From NCBI GenBank assembly GCA_017461865.1, contig JAFTVQ010000119.1, positions 1 through 43,240 on the forward strand: DNA of 43,240 nt. Direction: 5' to 3'. Below are positions 31,201 to 41,406 of this stretch, one piece after another; position 1 is the first letter of the stretch, and each line of letters opens with the position of its first letter. The notes under the pieces are model-generated. The model had not been told where the DNA came from, made no database searches, and was given only the letters and a program-made list of their open reading frames with translations. Origin of the DNA: Lachnospiraceae bacterium. GTDB lineage: Bacteria > Bacillota > Clostridia > Lachnospirales > Lachnospiraceae. A program made the translations under genes and the position numbers.

Positions 31201-34200
31201 TTATCCCTCCAACAATGCAATAAATGCTTTTGCTGTCTGATAAAGCTCTTTTGCAGAAGTATGACGTCCCTGTGCTTCTTCTGTCTGTCTCTCTGTTTCA
31301 CCGAGATCTCTCACTCCGGCCTTCATCGGCTTCCCTGCCTGATGTCCGCCTTCATACATACTTTGTTTGATCTCTTCACTATATACAAAATTTATATCGG
31401 CTGTTTTTCCTGTTTCCGATAGGATTTTTTGAACAAAATCTGCTCTTTTTTCCGCAAACTGAGCGGTTTTTTCCTTATCGCTGCATCCCATATATCCGGT
31501 GATAAAATCTCCCTGCAATTTCAATTGTGCCGTGATTTTCTCCCCACCTGCAAGCTCTGCAAAAATGGAAACACTTCCTCTTTCCGCACTGTTTTCAGCG
31601 TCATGCCGGAAACGCACATTGACACTTGTGAGCTGTCCGTCAATCACTGCCGGAAGCTCGTAATTTTCCTCTTTCGCAAGATTTCCCGCCAAAGAAAGCT
31701 GTTTGGAGAGGGAGGAAAGTGCTCTGATATCCAAATAACCCATATCTCCCGACAACATCATTTCTTCCAGACGGTCATTTACAGACTGTTGCACCTCTTC
31801 ATATGCATCCTGCGCATCGGTTGCTGTTGTAAAGTGCTCTGTCATCCGGTTGAGTGCTTCTGTAATATCCGCATCCGCCGATTCCTGCTTTTCGGCAAAT
31901 TCTTTTATTTTTCGGAACATTTCGCCTCTGCGTCCGAGCAGTTTTTCCCCGCCGTGAAGATTGTCCGGCGTAATGGCCTGTCTGTTGGCAAGAAGCATTT
32001 CCACCACCGGATCTTCCGCCGAGATATCCTGTCTCAATAACTGAAGCTGTTCCTCAAGATACGCTCTTTGAAGCTGCTCCGGCGCATCCTGTGTCTGTGA
32101 CAGTTCCATAAGCTCTTCCCATGTGGTATCCATTGTCACATGGTTCTGTGACATAACAACCGGACTCATCATCTCAAGAAGTCCTGTTGCTTTTGTTTCA
32201 TAATAGCGGTTAATCTGATCCGAAATCCGGGTTCCCTTCGCTTCTGCATTCTCAAGCAAACCGAAATTGTCATCCACAACCTGATCGATGCCATGTTTCT
32301 GACCGGTCCGAACTGCGGAAAGCAGGTTTGCAAACGTCAATTCCTGTCCGCTGTTCACAATAGCTCCGATGGCTTTTCCGTCACCTTTTTCTATCTGACG
32401 GATAAGACGGTAAATACCCATATATGTATCCCGTTCCTCGGCAGATATCTGCCCGCTGTGCTCCATTTCATAGAGGAAACGGCTGAATGTTTCCACCCTG
32501 TCTGTCAACTCATTATCCTGTTTTGTAAAATAATCTGTCAGATCGGAAACGGTTTCTTCCAACGGATTGATTCCGTCGCGGATCATCTGTAAGGTAGCGG
32601 ATGGTGTCATTTTATCCAGCAAGAATTTAAGATCTGCATCCGTTGCGCGTACCCGGATAATGTTTTCCCCGGTCAACTCCATCTGATTATATGCAAGTAT
32701 TCTTACCGATCTGCGGTTATCCTCCGTCAGCTCAAAATCTAAATCCTGTAAAATATCATCAATATTGGAAAAAGCATCTTTCAGACGATCTCCCATATCT
32801 GCCCTCGGAGCTGTCATAAGTGCCTCATAACTTTCTCCCGCTTTTTTGTATGTGGATTCTAAAATGCGTCCTTCCTCATACACTCTCTGCAGCGTGAGAT
32901 GTTCTGCCGCGTCCATGACCTTCGGAATTACAGCCGCCGGCATTTGACGGATGGCAGTTGTCTTTTCCATCACATCAAGGAACTGTTCCTGCTTCTGCGC
33001 GTCCCCTGCCGTCAACCCCTGCGTCCGGTTCATCGTCTGTTCTGCCGCTTTTAACTGTTCTACCAGCTTTGTCAGCTCTGCGGTATCGATGGAATAATCA
33101 CTCTTCAATAATATGACATTGGCAGAAACCGTCATCTGTAAGCGCACTTCTTCCAATGTTCTCTGTGCGTGAAGCAAAGCTGCTTCATTTGAAATAACTT
33201 CTGCTTTTCCGCTGTACGCAGCCTGTGCCAGATCTATCTCCCTCTGTGCTCCTGCCAGGTTGCGGATATTTAAAACCTCGCCGGACGATACAACCTGCGC
33301 AAGCGCCTGATCGGAAATACCGTCTACCGTTTCGCGAAGCTGCGCTGCCTGTTTATAAATACCATCCCGGGACAAATCCGCATCTTTCGCCTGTTTTCCC
33401 TCGCGAAGTGCCTGTGCAATATGCGAGAGTGCATCTTCTCTCGTCATCGGAAACTCCATTTTGTTCATACGGTGAAGTTTTTCCAGATTTTCACCGGTAA
33501 GAAGCATTCCTTTGTCCAAAAGCCATTTTGCCTCCGACTGTGTTTCTTCATTAACGGAGAGTCCGGCTTCTTTTATAACCTTTTCAATCTGCGCATTAAG
33601 CTCTTCATAATCGGCTCCCTGCGCCTGTTTTCCGAAATAACCGTTCATATCGTCGGTAAAATAATGCCCGGTTTTTCCGGTATGACTTCCGGATTCCGCA
33701 CTGAATTTTGCCTTATAAATATCGTTAACGGAAAGCTCCGATTCATTTTCAATCAAATACTGTTTCACCGAATCGGAAAGCCCTGTGATTTCCGTGGCAA
33801 GCTCTGACTGTTTCATCGCCTCCGTAACATTTTCCTCGGTAAGCGGAACATCATTTTCCTGAAATGCACCGGCAAGAGACTGCGCATATGCTGCATTTCC
33901 GGCCATGGCTTCCAGCTTCTCCATCGGAATATCTCCGCTGCCGTTAAATCCGGAAACAACGACTCCTGATTTTGCCATCACCGTTTTAATGTGATCCATG
34001 ATCGTGACTGCGTCGCTAACCTGTGTTTTTCCCGGTTTCACGCCCTCTTCCATCATGGAAGAAAAGTCTTCCCCGGACATGGTGGAGGACATGACTGCCA
34101 TATAGTTCTTGTAATCTTCGCCGGAGAGCAGTCCTGCCTGATCTTTCACTTCCTGCGCGCTTTTCGTCTGTTTTCCGTAAGCCTGCTGTTCCTGTGATTT

Positions 34201-34326
34201 TCCGAACAAAACTCCGGACACCCCTTTTGTACTCCGGCTTTTGCCGACATTCTGCGCAGCCGTTTCCGCTGTCTTTGCAATATGATTTGTTTTATTTTCC
34301 TGTAAATGATCAAACGTAATCTTCAT
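31201..34326 (-). CDS. 1041-residue flagellar-locus protein (DUF6240-like), possible FliK-like C-terminus
   Basis: No signal peptide or membrane helix. The first ~60 residues are Ser/Gln/Lys-rich. From ~130 to ~870 the protein is mainly helical with seven or so loose repeats built on (L/I)-T-x-(E/D/F)-N-(L/I/V), for example VPLTEENVTEAMKQ, GMLLTGENLEKLHR, MELTGENIIRVR, GQELTFANLLSAVR and QAITPDNLHGGE. Residues ~900-1000 (LPAVIDGQLTSVNVRFRHDA, SVSIFAELAGGEKITAQL, QGDFITGYMGC) look like the beta-rich hook-length domain of FliK (inference). I recall a family name, DUF6240, for similar Lachnospiraceae proteins, but am not sure. First gene behind the sigma-28-like promoter; flagellin follows. Confidence 0.7.
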   Translation of the reverse strand: MKITFDHLQENKTNHIAKTAETAAQNVGKSRSTKGVSGVLFGKSQEQQAYGKQTKSAQEVKDQAGLLSGEDYKNYMAVMSSTMSGEDFSSMMEEGVKPGKTQVSDAVTIMDHIKTVMAKSGVVVSGFNGSGDIPMEKLEAMAGNAAYAQSLAGAFQENDVPLTEENVTEAMKQSELATEITGLSDSVKQYLIENESELSVNDIYKAKFSAESGSHTGKTGHYFTDDMNGYFGKQAQGADYEELNAQIEKVIKEAGLSVNEETQSEAKWLLDKGMLLTGENLEKLHRMNKMEFPMTREDALSHIAQALREGKQAKDADLSRDGIYKQAAQLRETVDGISDQALAQVVSSGEVLNIRNLAGAQREIDLAQAAYSGKAEVISNEAALLHAQRTLEEVRLQMTVSANVILLKSDYSIDTAELTKLVEQLKAAEQTMNRTQGLTAGDAQKQEQFLDVMEKTTAIRQMPAAVIPKVMDAAEHLTLQRVYEEGRILESTYKKAGESYEALMTAPRADMGDRLKDAFSNIDDILQDLDFELTEDNRRSVRILAYNQMELTGENIIRVRATDADLKFLLDKMTPSATLQMIRDGINPLEETVSDLTDYFTKQDNELTDRVETFSRFLYEMEHSGQISAEERDTYMGIYRLIRQIEKGDGKAIGAIVNSGQELTFANLLSAVRTGQKHGIDQVVDDNFGLLENAEAKGTRISDQINRYYETKATGLLEMMSPVVMSQNHVTMDTTWEELMELSQTQDAPEQLQRAYLEEQLQLLRQDISAEDPVVEMLLANRQAITPDNLHGGEKLLGRRGEMFRKIKEFAEKQESADADITEALNRMTEHFTTATDAQDAYEEVQQSVNDRLEEMMLSGDMGYLDIRALSSLSKQLSLAGNLAKEENYELPAVIDGQLTSVNVRFRHDAENSAERGSVSIFAELAGGEKITAQLKLQGDFITGYMGCSDKEKTAQFAEKRADFVQKILSETGKTADINFVYSEEIKQSMYEGGHQAGKPMKAGVRDLGETERQTEEAQGRHTSAKELYQTAKAFIALLEG

Positions 34327-34355: not shown

Positions 34356-34387
34356 AAAAAGGCGAATGCAAAATGCATTCACCTTTT
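34356..34387. terminator. Bidirectional terminator after glgB
   Basis: AAAAAGG-c-GAATGCA / TGCATTC-a-CCTTTT with a 3-nt AAA loop. On the minus strand TTTTT (34360-34356) follows. It separates glgB from the flagellar transcript, whose likely start lies inside or at the edge of this hairpin. Confidence 0.85.
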
Positions 34388-34436: not shown

Positions 34437-36365
34437 CTAAAACAGGAAAACTGCTGCCCCATATGCCGGGAGATCAAAAGAAATAGAGTATTCTTTTCCG
34501 TCCCAAGGCTCTGCTTTGGCAGAAATTTCTTTCGGAATCTCTGTTCCGTTTCCTCCGAAACATTCTTCGTCGCTGTTCAAAAGAAGTTTGTATTTTTTCT
34601 TTTTCGGAACGCCGACTTTATAGCCTTCTCTCTTCATCGGTGTCATATTGAGTACAACCAGAATGTTATTTCTTCCGCTCTCAGATTTTCTCATGTAGGT
34701 ATATGTACTGTCTTCGGCATTGTCCGCGTTAATCCATTCAAAACTCTTCCAGTTGTTGTCATTTTCATACATACACGGATATTTGTTGTAAATTTCCAGA
34801 AGCTTGCTCATGTAGTACTTCAGCGAACTGTGTTCCTTATCTTGCAGATAATGCCATTCCAACTCTCTGGCTTCGGACCACTCCTGATCCTGTCCGAACT
34901 CCTGTCCCATGAACAGAAGCTTTTTGCCGCAGTGCGTAAACATATAAGTATATCCCACACGCAGATTTGCAAATTTGTCCACATAGAAGCCCGGCATTTT
35001 GTTCAACATGGAACATTTCAAATGCACTACCTCATCATGGGATAACGGAAGAATATAGTTTTCGCTTTCATTGTAACTCATGGCAAATGTCAGCGCATAA
35101 TGGTTATTTTTGCGGAATAACGGATCCAGCTTCATGTATTCACAGAAATCATGCATCCATCCCATGTTCCATTTAAAGGAGAATCCGAGTCCTCCCTCTT
35201 TCGGATCGCCGGTCACAAGCGGCCATGCGGTCGATTCTTCCGCAATCATAAGTGTTCCCGGATTTCTCTTTTTCATCATGGAATTCAAATGACGGAAAAA
35301 TTCGATCGCTTCCAGGTTCTTATTGTTTCCGTACTCATTCGGAAGCCACTGTCCGTCTCTTCTTCCGTAGTCCAGATAAAGCATGGAAGCTACAGCATCT
35401 ACGCGGAGTCCGTCAATATGGAACTTCTCCACCCAGAACATGGCATTTGCAATCAGGAAGTTTCTGACTTCATTTTTTCCGTAGTTAAAAATCTTGGTTC
35501 CCCAGTCCGGATGCTCTCCTCTCCGGCTGTCCGGATGCTCATACAGACAACTTCCGTCAAATGTTGCAAGTCCGAACTCATCTCTCGGAAAATGCGCAGG
35601 AACCCAGTCAAGGATAACTCCGATATGATTTTTGTGAAGCTTGTTCACAAGATACATGAAATCCGCCGGTGTTCCGTAACGGGATGTCGGTGCATAATAA
35701 CCGGTCACCTGATATCCCCAGGAACCGTCAAACGGATGCTCCGCAATACCCATGAGCTCCACATGTGTATATTTCATTTCTTTACAGTATTCTACAAAAC
35801 GGTCTGCAAATTCACGATAATTGTAAAAACCGGTTTCTTTCTCATCATCACCGGATACCGGATGTTTCATCCAGGAACCGATATGACATTCATAAATTGC
35901 CATTGGTTTTTTGTTGTAATCGGTTGTTTCTCTTTCTTTCTGCCATGCACTGTCTGTCCATGTAAACTCAGCTAAATCAGCCACTACAGACGCATTGTCC
36001 GGTCGAAGCTGCGCATGGTTTGCATACGGGTCTGCCTTATAAAGCTTCTTTCCTTCCGGTGTCGTGATAACATATTTGTACATATCCCCAACCTTTGCAC
36101 CCGGAATAAACAATGCAAAAATACCGCCGTCGCCGAGACGCTGCATATTATCTTTGTAAATATCCCATTCATTAAAGGAACCGATGACATTTACATACTG
36201 TGCATTCGGTGCCCATACTGCAAAATAAACGCCGTCTTCGCCATTTACGGTCGTTTTATGTGCACCGAGTTTTTCATATATTTCATAATGATTTCCCTGT
36301 GCAAATAAATACTCATCATCTTTTGTGATAAAGAGCGGATTTACCTGTTTTTTGTTTTCTGCCAT
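34437..36365 (-). CDS. glgB: 1,4-alpha-glucan (glycogen) branching enzyme
   Basis: 642-residue GH13 enzyme, cytoplasmic; makes alpha-1,6 branches in glycogen. Residues ~20-120 form the CBM48 N-domain (YEIYEKLGAHKTTVNGEDGV, VIGSFNEWDIYKDNMQRLGD). Catalytic (alpha/beta)8 barrel: VILDWVPAHFPRDEFGLATF, GLRVDAVASMLYLDY (Asp nucleophile), LMIAEESTAWP (Glu acid/base), LPLSHDEVVH (third Asp). The C-terminal all-beta domain ends PAYGAAVFLF. GAGG precedes the ATG. It lies 12 nt downstream of the large TPR/AAA-like gene and shares its promoter; no other glg gene is visible in this window. Confidence 0.97.
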   Translation of the reverse strand: MAENKKQVNPLFITKDDEYLFAQGNHYEIYEKLGAHKTTVNGEDGVYFAVWAPNAQYVNVIGSFNEWDIYKDNMQRLGDGGIFALFIPGAKVGDMYKYVITTPEGKKLYKADPYANHAQLRPDNASVVADLAEFTWTDSAWQKERETTDYNKKPMAIYECHIGSWMKHPVSGDDEKETGFYNYREFADRFVEYCKEMKYTHVELMGIAEHPFDGSWGYQVTGYYAPTSRYGTPADFMYLVNKLHKNHIGVILDWVPAHFPRDEFGLATFDGSCLYEHPDSRRGEHPDWGTKIFNYGKNEVRNFLIANAMFWVEKFHIDGLRVDAVASMLYLDYGRRDGQWLPNEYGNNKNLEAIEFFRHLNSMMKKRNPGTLMIAEESTAWPLVTGDPKEGGLGFSFKWNMGWMHDFCEYMKLDPLFRKNNHYALTFAMSYNESENYILPLSHDEVVHLKCSMLNKMPGFYVDKFANLRVGYTYMFTHCGKKLLFMGQEFGQDQEWSEARELEWHYLQDKEHSSLKYYMSKLLEIYNKYPCMYENDNNWKSFEWINADNAEDSTYTYMRKSESGRNNILVVLNMTPMKREGYKVGVPKKKKYKLLLNSDEECFGGNGTEIPKEISAKAEPWDGKEYSISFDLPAYGAAVFLF

Positions 36366-36377
36366 AATTTACCTCTC

Positions 36378-39300
36378 TCAGTCATTCATAAAATCTTTTT
36401 CTCTCAATACAATCATGTCATCCTTGTCGTAACGTTTTGCAAAAATAACATCCATAAAATGAGAAAGATTCTTTTTCTCCGATTTTTCTATTGCCTGCAA
36501 AATAATTTCTTTTACTTCATCTACCGTAACCGCATGCTCGTTGGTCTGTTTTTCCTCAATCCTGTTATAGAGAGCCAGAACACCCATATCATCAATGGTG
36601 TATTCTTTTTCTTTTGCAAACTCTTTTCCGAATTTTACCAGACCGTCATTATCCAACGCACTGATATCCATATGAAGATTGAAATATTCATTCATCTTAG
36701 CATAGCTGCGGGACAATCTTTCCATTCCCGATTTCGTATCAATCAGAATGTAAACAATACCGCCGTTTTCAATCTCGTTACCTGCTTTGATCAGCTTATT
36801 GCATAAATCTGCAGACATATCTCCGGCATTTTCAATAATCAATGCTCCGTTGGCGAGCTGCGCCACAATTGCAAAAATATCTTTTCCGTTGAATTCCTCC
36901 ACGGAAGAAATCTGTGTCTTTCCGGAAAATGCAGGATTGGTCTTTGACAGGTGTAAAACTATATTTTTGGCTACACTCTGTTTATCAATCCCTTTTTCTG
37001 CAGTAATAAAGATATTTCCCGTATAAGGAAGCAGGGAAATATTATCCAGGACATTCGTTACCTTTTCCTGCAACTCTTTTGTCGGAGCAATTCCCCCGAA
37101 CAAATCTTTTTCATCCTTTGTCAGTATACGCGGTCCTGTCGGTTTTTTCTCTGCCGGCACCTCTTTTACAACCGGTTCTGCCGGAGATGCCATCGCAGAT
37201 TCCAAAACTGCTGCCTGCATATTGGCTGTATCATAATGCTGCTGCGACAACGCACCCATCAACTTATCTTCCAGTCCGTTGATTTCTTCTGTGCTGAAAC
37301 TGCTCGGTCTGTCCTCCGTATCCTCTACAGAAGCCTCCTGAGCCGCGCTTCTCGTCGCTGCTTCCTCTGCAGCTTTCATAGCTGCCATCATTGCAATATT
37401 ATTTACCGGAGCGCTTTCGATCGGTTCTTCGGCCGGTTCTTCGGTTACAACCGGTTCCTCAACCATTGCCGCTTCCTCTGTCATAACTTCCGTTTCAACT
37501 GCTGTCGGCTCCTCAGTGGCAACAACTTCTTCTACTTCCATCGGCTCTTCCACCGGAGTTTCTTCACTTTGCGGAAGTTCTTCCACGGCCTCTTCCATAA
37601 GTGCAGTTTCTACTTCCGTCGCCAACTCCTCGGTCTCGGAAAATACATCCAATGTCGGATTTATCATTGCCAAATCCGACTGGACACTGGCTCTTGCCGC
37701 TGCATCAAAATCAGAAAGAAGCGGACCTGTCTGCTCCATCACTCTCTGCTTCATTTCCTGCAGATGTTTTTCTTCATTCGCCTTCTTGGTTTCTTCCCAC
37801 TCTGCCATAATATCGGAAAAACTCAACTGGCCGGTAATTTGTTTTTCTACCATTTCCTGCGGTTCTTCAGAAACAACAGGCGTATTCTCCACTGCCGGAA
37901 CAACTTCCGGTTTCATTTCTTTCATTACTTCGGCGGTTGCTTGTGCTGCCTCCGTGGCTGCCTGTTTTGCCGCTTCCGCTGCTGCCTGTCTGGCTGCTTC
38001 TTTTGCAGCTTCCATGGCAACATTTTGCAACGCCTGGATTACCGATTCCGGTAACGGCTGATTTTGTCCAAATACAATCGGTTCTACTGCTGCAGGTGTT
38101 TCAGCCTGCGGCTCTTCCTCTATTTCAGGAATTTCCTCTGCCTCTGCAATCTCTTCCACTTCAGAGATTTCTTCTGCTTCAGGGATTTCCTCTGCTTCAG
38201 GAATTTCTTCTACCTCAGCGATTTCTTCTACTTCAGGAATTTCCTCTGCTTCGACGATTTCTTCCACGTCCGGAATTTCCTTCGTCTCCTCAAGAGAGAT
38301 TACCTCATTGACTACTTCCTCCTGAAGAGGAATGTTTTCTACATTTTCAATGGAAAGATCCTGGGAAGTTGCTTCAAAAATAGATTCTATCGGCAACGCC
38401 CGGGTCGCATCTGCTGCTTCCATATCTTCCTGAGCAAGCATTTCTGCCAAATTCTTTGCAAGCTCCTCCTGAAGATTGATTGTATTATACTCATCACCTA
38501 CATCGATGGTTTTTACCTGTATGTCATAATCATCTGCGGAATTCACAATTTTCATATCCGCATCTTCATCCATTGGGATTTCTGCTTCGGAAGAATATGT
38601 AACTTCATCCTCATCTGCCGGAATATTTACGTTCTCGTAACCTTCTGTTTCATACGTCTCATAAAGTACCGGCTTTTCCGTTTGGACCATAACTTCTTCC
38701 GTCGGTTCATAGGAAAGCTCTTCTTTCACTTTTTTGCTTGGAATTTCCGCAGTCTTTGCGCGGGTTGCTTCCACGGATTTAATCTCAATGGAAAGAGATG
38801 GCTCTACTTCCTCCGGCGTTGCAGCTTCTTCCTGTGCCTCCGGTGCTGCTTCTGCCACAGGAACCATGAAGCGGGCATTATAAACTTCCTGCTGTTCCGG
38901 AGATAACGGCGCATGAAGCATTTTAAGTTCTAACGCTTTGATAACGTACTTTCCTTCTCCGAACCATAAAATAAGCTCGTCACATTCTTCCACGCAACGG
39001 GTCGCAAGACCGATGCGATGGTATAAATATGCCAGCTCATATGCCCATTTTTCACGATAGTCACGCTTCTTGTATTCTTCAAGAACAGCGATGCGCTCCT
39101 CAAGGCTGACATCCTGTGCTTCATAAAGGCGATATTGCAGGATAAAACGACCGGTATCCCTCGGAGCTATCTTGATAAATTCTTTATAATATTCTACCGC
39201 CTGAACGGTCTCTTCCAATTTAATGGAAAGTTCACAAAGAGAATAAACAATCTTACGGGATTTATTCTGGAGTTCATATGCCATAAGAAGAATTTCTTTG

Positions 39301-39476
39301 CTGTCCTCATAACGTCGGTTCATTTTGTAAAGTTCACTGACTTTACAAAGCATAACAACACTTCGCACTCTTCTCCAATCTATGGTATCTGCAATTTTCA
39401 CTGCCTCCACGTATTGTTTTTTCTCGATAAGATCATTGATTTCCTCTGCCCGGATCCGGTATTCATACTTATCCAA
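36378..39476 (-). CDS. Giant protein: TPR-like N-terminus, acidic repeats, degenerate AAA+ C-terminus
   Basis: 1032 residues, cytoplasmic, no family recognised as a whole. Residues 1-~200 are a TPR-like helical repeat (KKQYVEAVKIADTIDWRRV, YEDSKEILLMAYELQNK, ETVQAVEYYKEFIKIAPR). Residues ~210-780 are Glu-rich and low-complexity, including nine hexads of the form EI(P/A/S/V)(E/D)(V/A/I)E and an Ala-rich stretch (AAKEAARQAAAEAAKQAATE). Residues ~790-1032 resemble a SpoVK/CbbX-type AAA+ domain, with TAEKGIDKQS in place of Walker A and ALIIENAG in place of Walker B. The TTG at 39476 is taken as the start (GAGGTGA 5 nt upstream); TTG 39500 is the alternative. It precedes glgB by 12 nt. Confidence 0.78.
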   Translation of the reverse strand: MDKYEYRIRAEEINDLIEKKQYVEAVKIADTIDWRRVRSVVMLCKVSELYKMNRRYEDSKEILLMAYELQNKSRKIVYSLCELSIKLEETVQAVEYYKEFIKIAPRDTGRFILQYRLYEAQDVSLEERIAVLEEYKKRDYREKWAYELAYLYHRIGLATRCVEECDELILWFGEGKYVIKALELKMLHAPLSPEQQEVYNARFMVPVAEAAPEAQEEAATPEEVEPSLSIEIKSVEATRAKTAEIPSKKVKEELSYEPTEEVMVQTEKPVLYETYETEGYENVNIPADEDEVTYSSEAEIPMDEDADMKIVNSADDYDIQVKTIDVGDEYNTINLQEELAKNLAEMLAQEDMEAADATRALPIESIFEATSQDLSIENVENIPLQEEVVNEVISLEETKEIPDVEEIVEAEEIPEVEEIAEVEEIPEAEEIPEAEEISEVEEIAEAEEIPEIEEEPQAETPAAVEPIVFGQNQPLPESVIQALQNVAMEAAKEAARQAAAEAAKQAATEAAQATAEVMKEMKPEVVPAVENTPVVSEEPQEMVEKQITGQLSFSDIMAEWEETKKANEEKHLQEMKQRVMEQTGPLLSDFDAAARASVQSDLAMINPTLDVFSETEELATEVETALMEEAVEELPQSEETPVEEPMEVEEVVATEEPTAVETEVMTEEAAMVEEPVVTEEPAEEPIESAPVNNIAMMAAMKAAEEAATRSAAQEASVEDTEDRPSSFSTEEINGLEDKLMGALSQQHYDTANMQAAVLESAMASPAEPVVKEVPAEKKPTGPRILTKDEKDLFGGIAPTKELQEKVTNVLDNISLLPYTGNIFITAEKGIDKQSVAKNIVLHLSKTNPAFSGKTQISSVEEFNGKDIFAIVAQLANGALIIENAGDMSADLCNKLIKAGNEIENGGIVYILIDTKSGMERLSRSYAKMNEYFNLHMDISALDNDGLVKFGKEFAKEKEYTIDDMGVLALYNRIEEKQTNEHAVTVDEVKEIILQAIEKSEKKNLSHFMDVIFAKRYDKDDMIVLREKDFMND
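38118..38279 (-). repeat. In-gene tandem repeat, nine 18-nt units
   Basis: Nine consecutive 18-nt units coding for a six-residue unit EI-x-(E/D)-x-E, without gaps. Units differ at synonymous and one or two non-synonymous positions, which implies older copies rather than a fresh expansion. They lie in the acidic linker of the large protein. Confidence 0.85.
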
Positions 39477-39534: not shown

Positions 39535-39563
39535 AGTGTAACATACGACACTATTTTAGTCAA
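39535..39563 (-). promoter_or_regulatory. Sigma-A promoter of the large protein gene and glgB
   Basis: Minus strand TTGACT (39563-39558), 17-nt spacer, TACACT (39540-39535). Transcription would start near 39528, about 50 nt before the TTG at 39476. Confidence 0.6.
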
Positions 39564-39584: not shown

Positions 39585-40433
39585 CTACAAAATATTAGAA
39601 AAATGAGCAAACTGCTCTAACGTAAATGCCTCTCCCCGCACGGAAGGAGAAAGCTCCATTTCAGAAAGGGCTCTGAGCACATCTTCCTTTTTGGCAACTC
39701 CGCCGTTGACCAATCCGTTGACCAGTGTTTTCCGGCGCTGGTTAAAACTGGCTCTGATAATGGAAAACATTTTATGTTCATTGTCCACTTTTACCGGCGG
39801 CTGTTCATAACGGGTCAACCGTATGACCGCACTTCCCACATTTGGCCGCGGAATGAAACAGTTAGGCGGAACATTGGCTACAATTTCCGGTTTTGCATAA
39901 TATTGGACTGCCAGAGAAAGTGCACCGTAATCTTTCGTTCCGGGACCTACCTTCATACGGTCTGCCACTTCCTTCTGCACCATAATCGTGATACTGCAGA
40001 GAGGAACATGACTTTCAAACAACCCCATAATAATCGGTGTTGTTATGTAATACGGAAGATTGGCTACCACCTTAATCGGTTTCCCTTCGTTTCTTTCCTC
40101 CACGATTTTAGCGATATCTACTTTTAAAATATCCTCGTTGATTACCGTCACATTGTCATAAGATGACAACGTGTCTTCCAAAATCGGTATAAGATTTTTA
40201 TCAATTTCAACTGCTATGACTTCCCGTGCATTTTCTGCCAGATACTGTGTCATTGTACCGATTCCCGGACCTATCTCAAGCACACAGTCCTCTTTCGTAA
40301 TCTCCGCAGCGGAAATAATCTTATCCAAAACATGTGGATCAATCAAAAAATTCTGTCCGAATTTCTTCTGAAAATTAAAATTGTACTTCTGCAGGACTTC
40401 TATCGTTCCTGTCGGATTTCCCAAATATGCCAT
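39585..40433 (-). CDS. rsmA: 16S rRNA (adenine-1518/1519) dimethyltransferase
   Basis: 282-residue KsgA/RsmA methyltransferase, cytoplasmic, acting on the 3' end of 16S rRNA in late 30S assembly. SAM motif I VLEIGPGIGTMTQYLAE near residue 50, with KFGQNFLIDPHVLDKI before it; VIAVEIDKNLIPIL; catalytic NLPYYITTPIIM near 123; C-terminal RPNVGSAVIRLTR and ASFNQRRKTLVNGL. AAGGA precedes the ATG. It lies 21 nt downstream of tatD, the common Firmicutes order tatD-rsmA (rnmV, which often lies between, is missing here). Confidence 0.96.
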   Translation of the reverse strand: MAYLGNPTGTIEVLQKYNFNFQKKFGQNFLIDPHVLDKIISAAEITKEDCVLEIGPGIGTMTQYLAENAREVIAVEIDKNLIPILEDTLSSYDNVTVINEDILKVDIAKIVEERNEGKPIKVVANLPYYITTPIIMGLFESHVPLCSITIMVQKEVADRMKVGPGTKDYGALSLAVQYYAKPEIVANVPPNCFIPRPNVGSAVIRLTRYEQPPVKVDNEHKMFSIIRASFNQRRKTLVNGLVNGGVAKKEDVLRALSEMELSPSVRGEAFTLEQFAHFSNIL

Positions 40434-41333: not shown

Positions 41334-41406
41334 GCGCGATTAGCTCAGTTGGTAGAGCACCTGACTCTTAATCAGGGTGTCCAGGGTTCGAGCCCCTGAT
41401 CGCGCA
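41334..41406 (+). tRNA. tRNA-Lys (CTT)
   Basis: 73 nt. Acceptor stem GCGCGAT/ATCGCGC, D-arm GCTCAGTTGGTAGAGC, anticodon arm CCTGA-CTCTTAA-TCAGG with anticodon CTT (reads AAG), variable loop GTGTC, T-arm CAGGG-TTCGAGC-CCCTG, discriminator A. CCA is not encoded. Confidence 0.97.

Follow-up and report, generated by a model that had tools for sequence, protein, structure and literature searches.

CbbX, the red-type Rubisco activase, is a single-domain AAA+ ATPase, and EccA is regarded as a functional ATPase that serves type VII secretion as a chaperone. Together with SpoVK, these proteins make up a clade that Delerue et al. (2023, PMC10659427) define by a sensor-1 Tyr, a sensor-2 Arg, and an Asn preceding the Arg finger. 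Its members are dedicated activators of single targets, with CbbX acting on Rubisco and SpoVK on the glycosyltransferase MurG; in vivo, SpoVK needs its Walker A, Walker B, and Arg finger (PMC10659427). EccA additionally possesses a TPR N-terminus (PMC10659427). Here, we describe a protein of the Lachnospiraceae whose C-terminal domain descends from this CbbX/SpoVK/EccA clade of AAA+ enzyme activators and which, in half of the genera examined, is encoded directly ahead of a glycogen branching enzyme.

The gene for this protein (36378–39476, minus strand) was found in a window of 43,240 nucleotides, that is, the whole stretch of Lachnospiraceae DNA that was analysed (contig JAFTVQ010000119.1), and occurs once in the host genome. 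It begins with a TTG codon at 39476, preceded by an AGGTG ribosome-binding sequence, ends with a stop codon at 36380–36378, and encodes 1032 amino acids arranged as an N-terminal TPR domain, an acidic linker, and a C-terminal pseudo-AAA domain. A gap of 12 nt (36366–36377, minus strand; GAGAGGTAAATT), exactly the spacing given in the first-pass annotation, holds the ribosome-binding site of glgB, which encodes a 1,4-alpha-glucan branching enzyme (34437–36365, minus strand; ATG at 36365) and is the second gene of the putative unit. The host genome contains at least three glgB-like genes, this one among them. Upstream of the TPR gene lie ksgA/rsmA (39585–40433, minus strand), the neighbour on this side in the window's clade, and tatD, while a DUF6240 gene and a flagellin gene follow glgB (ksgA, tatD, and flagellin being named from sequence). 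The DUF6240 protein (1041 aa; 31201–34326, minus strand), located between glgB and flagellin, has homologues in the same place in about 30 genera and is possibly a flagellar protein. The sole Rfam match within the window is a tRNA gene (41334–41406, plus strand), and no Rfam elements were found in the leader of the TPR gene.

The Lachnospiraceae rank among the dominant gut bacteria of mammals. With a TPR-domain profile, the protein was detected, nearly always in single copy, in 283 of 299 Lachnospiraceae genomes, nearly all of different genera, and in 236 of the 245 genomes of good quality. No TPR-domain match was obtained in the sister families of the order (0/24), and a class-wide draw of 291 genomes returned only members of the family and one divergent homologue (genome G488, E = 1.5e-17). 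The protein belongs to the near-universal, single-copy core of the Lachnospiraceae and is almost absent elsewhere. No curated family covers its full length, and the literature searches made yielded no paper on its name or function. TPR clusters have been reported to separate gut-restricted Lachnospiraceae from others (PMC3971600); because the TPR-pseudo-AAA protein is family-wide, it is probably different from that set. At one locus (L059), fission of the domains into two genes was considered and rejected, as the linker seems to run on in another frame, probably owing to a frameshift. At two others (L060 and L252), the C-domain is missing from the TPR protein, and an adjoining protein of about 1000 aa with a weak AAA match may carry it; these loci are possible natural two-gene versions.

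The TPR domain (aa 1–205; 38862–39476, minus strand) is the best-conserved part of the protein, with 99% identity to the nearest relative and 85–77% to more distant ones. A Pfam scan of the window's single sequence gave no TPR match; nevertheless, TPR_19 was matched in 23 of 24 family members scanned, and the family profile of the domain retrieved consensus TPR proteins from the PDB (best E = 3e-22), bearing out the TPR-like repeats that the first-pass annotation had recognised. The same annotation described an acidic linker of about 550 residues. This linker (aa 206–791; 37104–38861, minus strand) in fact spans 586 aa of low complexity, presumed disordered, and contains 157 Asp and Glu residues against 34 Lys and Arg, for a net charge of about −122. 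It is the least conserved part of the protein: in relatives whose TPR domains are 77–85% identical, the linkers share 35–42% identity with many gaps. An 18/36/54-nt tandem repeat within it (38115–38281, minus strand) encodes units of the EEIPEVEEIAEA type. A short stretch, GQLSFSDIMAEWEETKKANEE (37770–37832, minus strand; family form GQxSIEDILAEWExxK), is nonetheless conserved, with the strict pattern present in 64 of 142 proteins as opposed to 0.1 in shuffled sequences. At the other end of the protein, the conserved tail KRYDKDDMIVLREKDF (36390–36437, minus strand) ends in ExDF in the family, and [ED]-x-[DHNQ]-[FI] occurs close to the C-terminus in 131 of 142 proteins. Because the end of the G488 protein has a counterpart of this tail, the element may be an ancient component of the AAA domain and not a ligand gained later.

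The C-terminal pseudo-AAA domain (aa 792–1030; 36387–37103, minus strand) has a CbbX-like fold. When its profile was compared with the PDB, CbbX was the best match (E = 5e-19), and EccA1 was matched as well (E = 4.9e-11). An AlphaFold2 model of the full-length protein built from the single sequence was of no use (pLDDT 40); a model of the C-domain reached a pLDDT of 88.8, and CbbX was again the best structural match (Foldseek E = 1.6e-10; VIA-align Z = 16.1). The likeness to CbbX (PDB 3zuh/3syk) extends over most of the length of the domain, and the proposal of an AAA+-like C-terminus thus stands by sequence profile and by predicted structure alike. A weak Pfam match to the sigma-54 activator domain (E = 0.0022) was discarded, CbbX being far better.

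Residue counts were made on 114 family sequences aligned with CbbX, comprising 31 from the window's clade and 83 from other genera, and depend on that alignment. The Walker A position of the window reads AEKGIDKQS (aa 826–834; 36975–37001, minus strand), and the intact form GxxxxGK[ST] was found in none of the 31 members of the clade, as compared with 68 of the 83 sequences from other genera. At the Walker B position, LIIENAG (aa 879–885; 36822–36842, minus strand) stands where CbbX has FIDEA; the catalytic Glu is Asn in the window and is retained in 12 of the other 83. The first Arg finger is likewise Asn in the window and Arg in 11 of 83, and the Asn four residues ahead of it, which is Tyr in the window, is kept in 12 of 31 sequences of the clade and 45 of 83 from other genera. 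The aromatic-hydrophobic-Gly pore loop, YIG in CbbX, falls in a gap in all 114 sequences, again an alignment-dependent observation. The sensor-1 GY pair is gone from nearly all of the 114, with the Tyr column occupied by Thr in the window and mostly by Thr, Glu, Gln, or Asp in the family, and the sensor-2 Arg column holds Asp in the window and Ala, Thr, Glu, Gly, or Ser in most other members. The first-pass annotation had quoted these Walker motifs correctly and called them weakened; that term is too mild, since several catalytic positions have been lost throughout the family. Given these losses, ATP hydrolysis is unlikely across the family, as is nucleotide binding in the window's lineage, where Walker A is never intact. 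On these counts, an active motor was rejected for this lineage, for which an ATPase assay should be negative. In the majority of genera, where Walker A survives, nucleotide binding and perhaps weak turnover are conceivable.

Viewed against its relatives, the family differs from CbbX in the loss of the pore loop, catalytic Glu, sensor-1 GY pair, Arg finger, and sensor-2 residue, and in the addition of a TPR domain and an acidic linker. EccA1, of the ESX-1 type VII secretion system, shares the combination of a TPR N-terminus with a CbbX-type AAA domain; however, in the present family the AAA domain is degenerate and preceded by a long acidic linker, and no type VII secretion genes were recognised among the annotated clusters of genes neighbouring the TPR gene. 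SpoVK (stage V sporulation protein K) belongs to the same AAA clade and gave a weak NCBIfam match to the C-domain (E = 2.8e-5), but the three elements on which it depends in vivo (PMC10659427) are degenerate here. The divergent homologue from G488, a genome of another clostridial family, carries a homologous N-terminal TPR domain with four CbbX-type AAA domains in tandem behind it (locus L253). Unlike in the present family, the last of these, when read through, has its Walker A, FIDEA, AGY, and NARGVRN motifs intact, suggesting that the ancestor of the family was probably an active TPR-AAA protein.

The first-pass annotation would have been refuted by a glgB link limited to this genome. Instead, a survey of gene neighbours found the link conserved: in 71 of 141 Lachnospiraceae genus representatives, the TPR gene is immediately followed on its own strand by glgB, with a median gap of 31 nt, and glgB directly follows it in all 74 of the 80 nearest species that had enough contig. 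While glgB stays at +1, the gene at −1 changes repeatedly, being ksgA, an AI-2E transporter gene, an SMC-like gene, or one of many unique genes. On a tree of the TPR domain (FastTree, 200 columns, with many weak forks), the glgB state changes seven times by parsimony. The link could be ancestral to a clade of 105 genera, where it may represent one ancestral event kept by inertia. Other genes of alpha-glucan metabolism recur nearby: glgP lies at −1 in 8 genera and, on a separate branch, at +1 (L052), while about 7 genera have a neighbouring GH13 gene of the cyclomaltodextrinase-like kind, with or without glgB. Adjacency to ksgA arose twice as well, on separate branches: ksgA occupies the −1 position in 24 loci and the +1 position in 16. 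This signal almost equals that for glycogen in strength. Contexts of the TPR gene other than glgB include recR-dnaX, ksgA, transketolase, and the SMC-like gene. The SMC-like protein (1469 aa; L046:11206-15612 and 10 more loci), which has no Pfam match, is encoded ahead of the TPR gene, chiefly on deep branches, and its gene often occurs with that of a partner of about 197 aa. In genomes lacking the link, the GlgB nearest to that of the window (57–64% identical in most) is encoded elsewhere. A divergent glgB-like gene (G000:C210, L287; 42% identical) adjoins genes for a RACo-type ferredoxin protein and a ClpB-like protein, with no glycogen operon around it.

The TPR gene has its own putative promoter, TTGACT-N17-TACACT with an extended −10 TG (39535–39563, minus strand), although this match by itself would not exceed chance in the scan of the window. 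Its significance emerges from the family, in which the consensus is TTTTGACA-N15/16-T(A/G)TGnTAnACT, with TAnACT an unusual −10 element. Specificity was judged on about 3.4 Mb surrounding the TPR gene in many genomes. A loose pattern (TTGAC..TGnTAnnnT) precedes the TPR gene in 88 of 141 genera, as opposed to 0.26 in shuffles, but lies ahead of only 4 of 423 other neighbouring genes and of none of 78 glgB genes. The strict form (TAnACT) stands ahead of 78 TPR genes, with 2 occurrences elsewhere in 1.96 Mb; in near relatives, it precedes 53 of 80 TPR genes, compared with 2 other sites in 1.40 Mb. The pattern is missing where the TPR gene sits behind recR. Because it is kept in the absence of glgB too, the promoter belongs to the TPR gene.

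Across the 71 linked loci, the extended −10 pattern lies before the TPR gene in 55 and before glgB in none. An intrinsic terminator with a 14-bp stem follows glgB in the window (34357–34387, minus strand), and terminator-like hairpins occur after glgB in 45 of 73 loci, versus 4 of 73 shuffles, and in 2 of 74 gaps before glgB. With a promoter ahead of the TPR gene, none ahead of glgB, and a terminator behind glgB, a two-gene unit is well supported. The co-transcription that had been suggested for the window is thus probable: the two genes are a probable operon in the window's clade and are probably transcribed together in about half of the genera surveyed. In this clade, the promoter located downstream of ksgA and ahead of the TPR gene would make ksgA a separate unit.

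Linkage to glgB is not accompanied by dependence on it. Of the 245 good genomes, 12 have no glgB, yet each of them encodes the protein; conversely, glgB is present in every one of the 9 from which the protein is missing. No co-occurrence signal exists between the two, and strict dependence on glgB was rejected. Moreover, in three genomes from different genera (G242, 95% complete; G280, 99%; G213, 86%), glgA, glgB, glgC, and glgP were undetected while the TPR and AAA domains were kept, which excludes a dedicated glycogen protein found only with glycogen genes. The protein must therefore have at least one role independent of glycogen. Of the earlier suggestion of a scaffold for glycogen granules, the conserved glgB link and the recurrent alpha-glucan neighbours speak in its favour, but such scaffolding cannot be the only role, given the three genera without glgA, glgB, glgC, or glgP.

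The explanation that we tentatively favour, while holding it at less than even odds, is that the protein acts as a scaffold or adaptor without ATP hydrolysis and that GlgB is a client of it in the window's clade. In its favour count the family-wide distribution, the CbbX-like origin of the C-domain and its lost catalytic residues, the homologue in G488, the AAA-clade relatives, which are dedicated activators of single enzymes (PMC10659427), the TPR-AAA layout of EccA, the probable operon with glgB at +1 in half of the genera, and the recurrent alpha-glucan neighbours. Against it count the missing co-occurrence with glgB, the three genera in which the protein outlasts the glycogen genes, the two origins of ksgA adjacency, the possible inertia of the glgB link, and the intact Walker A of most genera. 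In such a scaffold, the TPR domain and the linker motif would bind client enzymes, and the pseudo-AAA domain would hold the complex together or, where Walker A survives, sense nucleotide. GlgB would be one client in this genome, its place possibly being taken elsewhere by GlgP or a GH13 enzyme, and co-transcription would set a fixed ratio of scaffold to GlgB. Close behind in plausibility is a housekeeping scaffold unrelated to glycogen, with glgB merely carried along behind a strong conserved promoter and retained through common descent. This fits the retention of the protein without any of the four glycogen genes, the lack of co-occurrence with glgB, a promoter kept with or without glgB, and the recR-dnaX, ksgA, transketolase, and SMC-like contexts. 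It fits less well with the persistence of glgB at +1 across a large clade despite repeated changes upstream, and with the further origins of alpha-glucan adjacency represented by glgP on two branches.

Two other possibilities carry far less weight. That the protein is an active CbbX-type chaperone, remodelling or activating GlgB through ATP hydrolysis, might be expected from its homology with the dedicated activators CbbX, SpoVK, and EccA (PMC10659427) and from the intact Walker A of most other genera. It is nonetheless very improbable in view of the pore loop missing from every aligned sequence, the absence of an intact Walker A from the window's entire clade, a catalytic Glu that is absent from the window and infrequent outside its clade, and the lack of a sensor-1 GY pair and, in the window, of a sensor-2 Arg. 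Just as slight is the chance of a ribosome maturation or translation factor linked to KsgA/RsmA: ksgA adjacency on separate branches points that way, whereas the promoter between ksgA and the TPR gene splits the two units in the window's clade, many genera have no ksgA nearby, and no RNA-binding domain was recognised in the protein. Returning to the scaffold with GlgB as client, a broader version can be sketched, although we consider it rather unlikely as a whole: a dead branch of the CbbX/SpoVK/EccA clade would have become a multivalent cytosolic scaffold, with a TPR head, an acidic tether, and a pseudo-AAA hub, organising the enzymes of carbon storage along with something further on which nearly all members depend, and driven by a promoter near-unchanged across the family.

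Three new results stand out as the firmest: the core status of the protein throughout the family, the loss of its AAA motor, and its conserved dedicated promoter. The family offers an example of an enzyme-activating AAA+ domain without its motor, in which genera that have kept Walker A can be compared directly with those that have lost it. Likewise, the genera without glycogen genes provide a natural test for separating a glycogen role from a general one. For the Lachnospiraceae themselves, the conservation of the TPR-pseudo-AAA protein and its dedicated promoter suggest that the protein is of importance to the cell.
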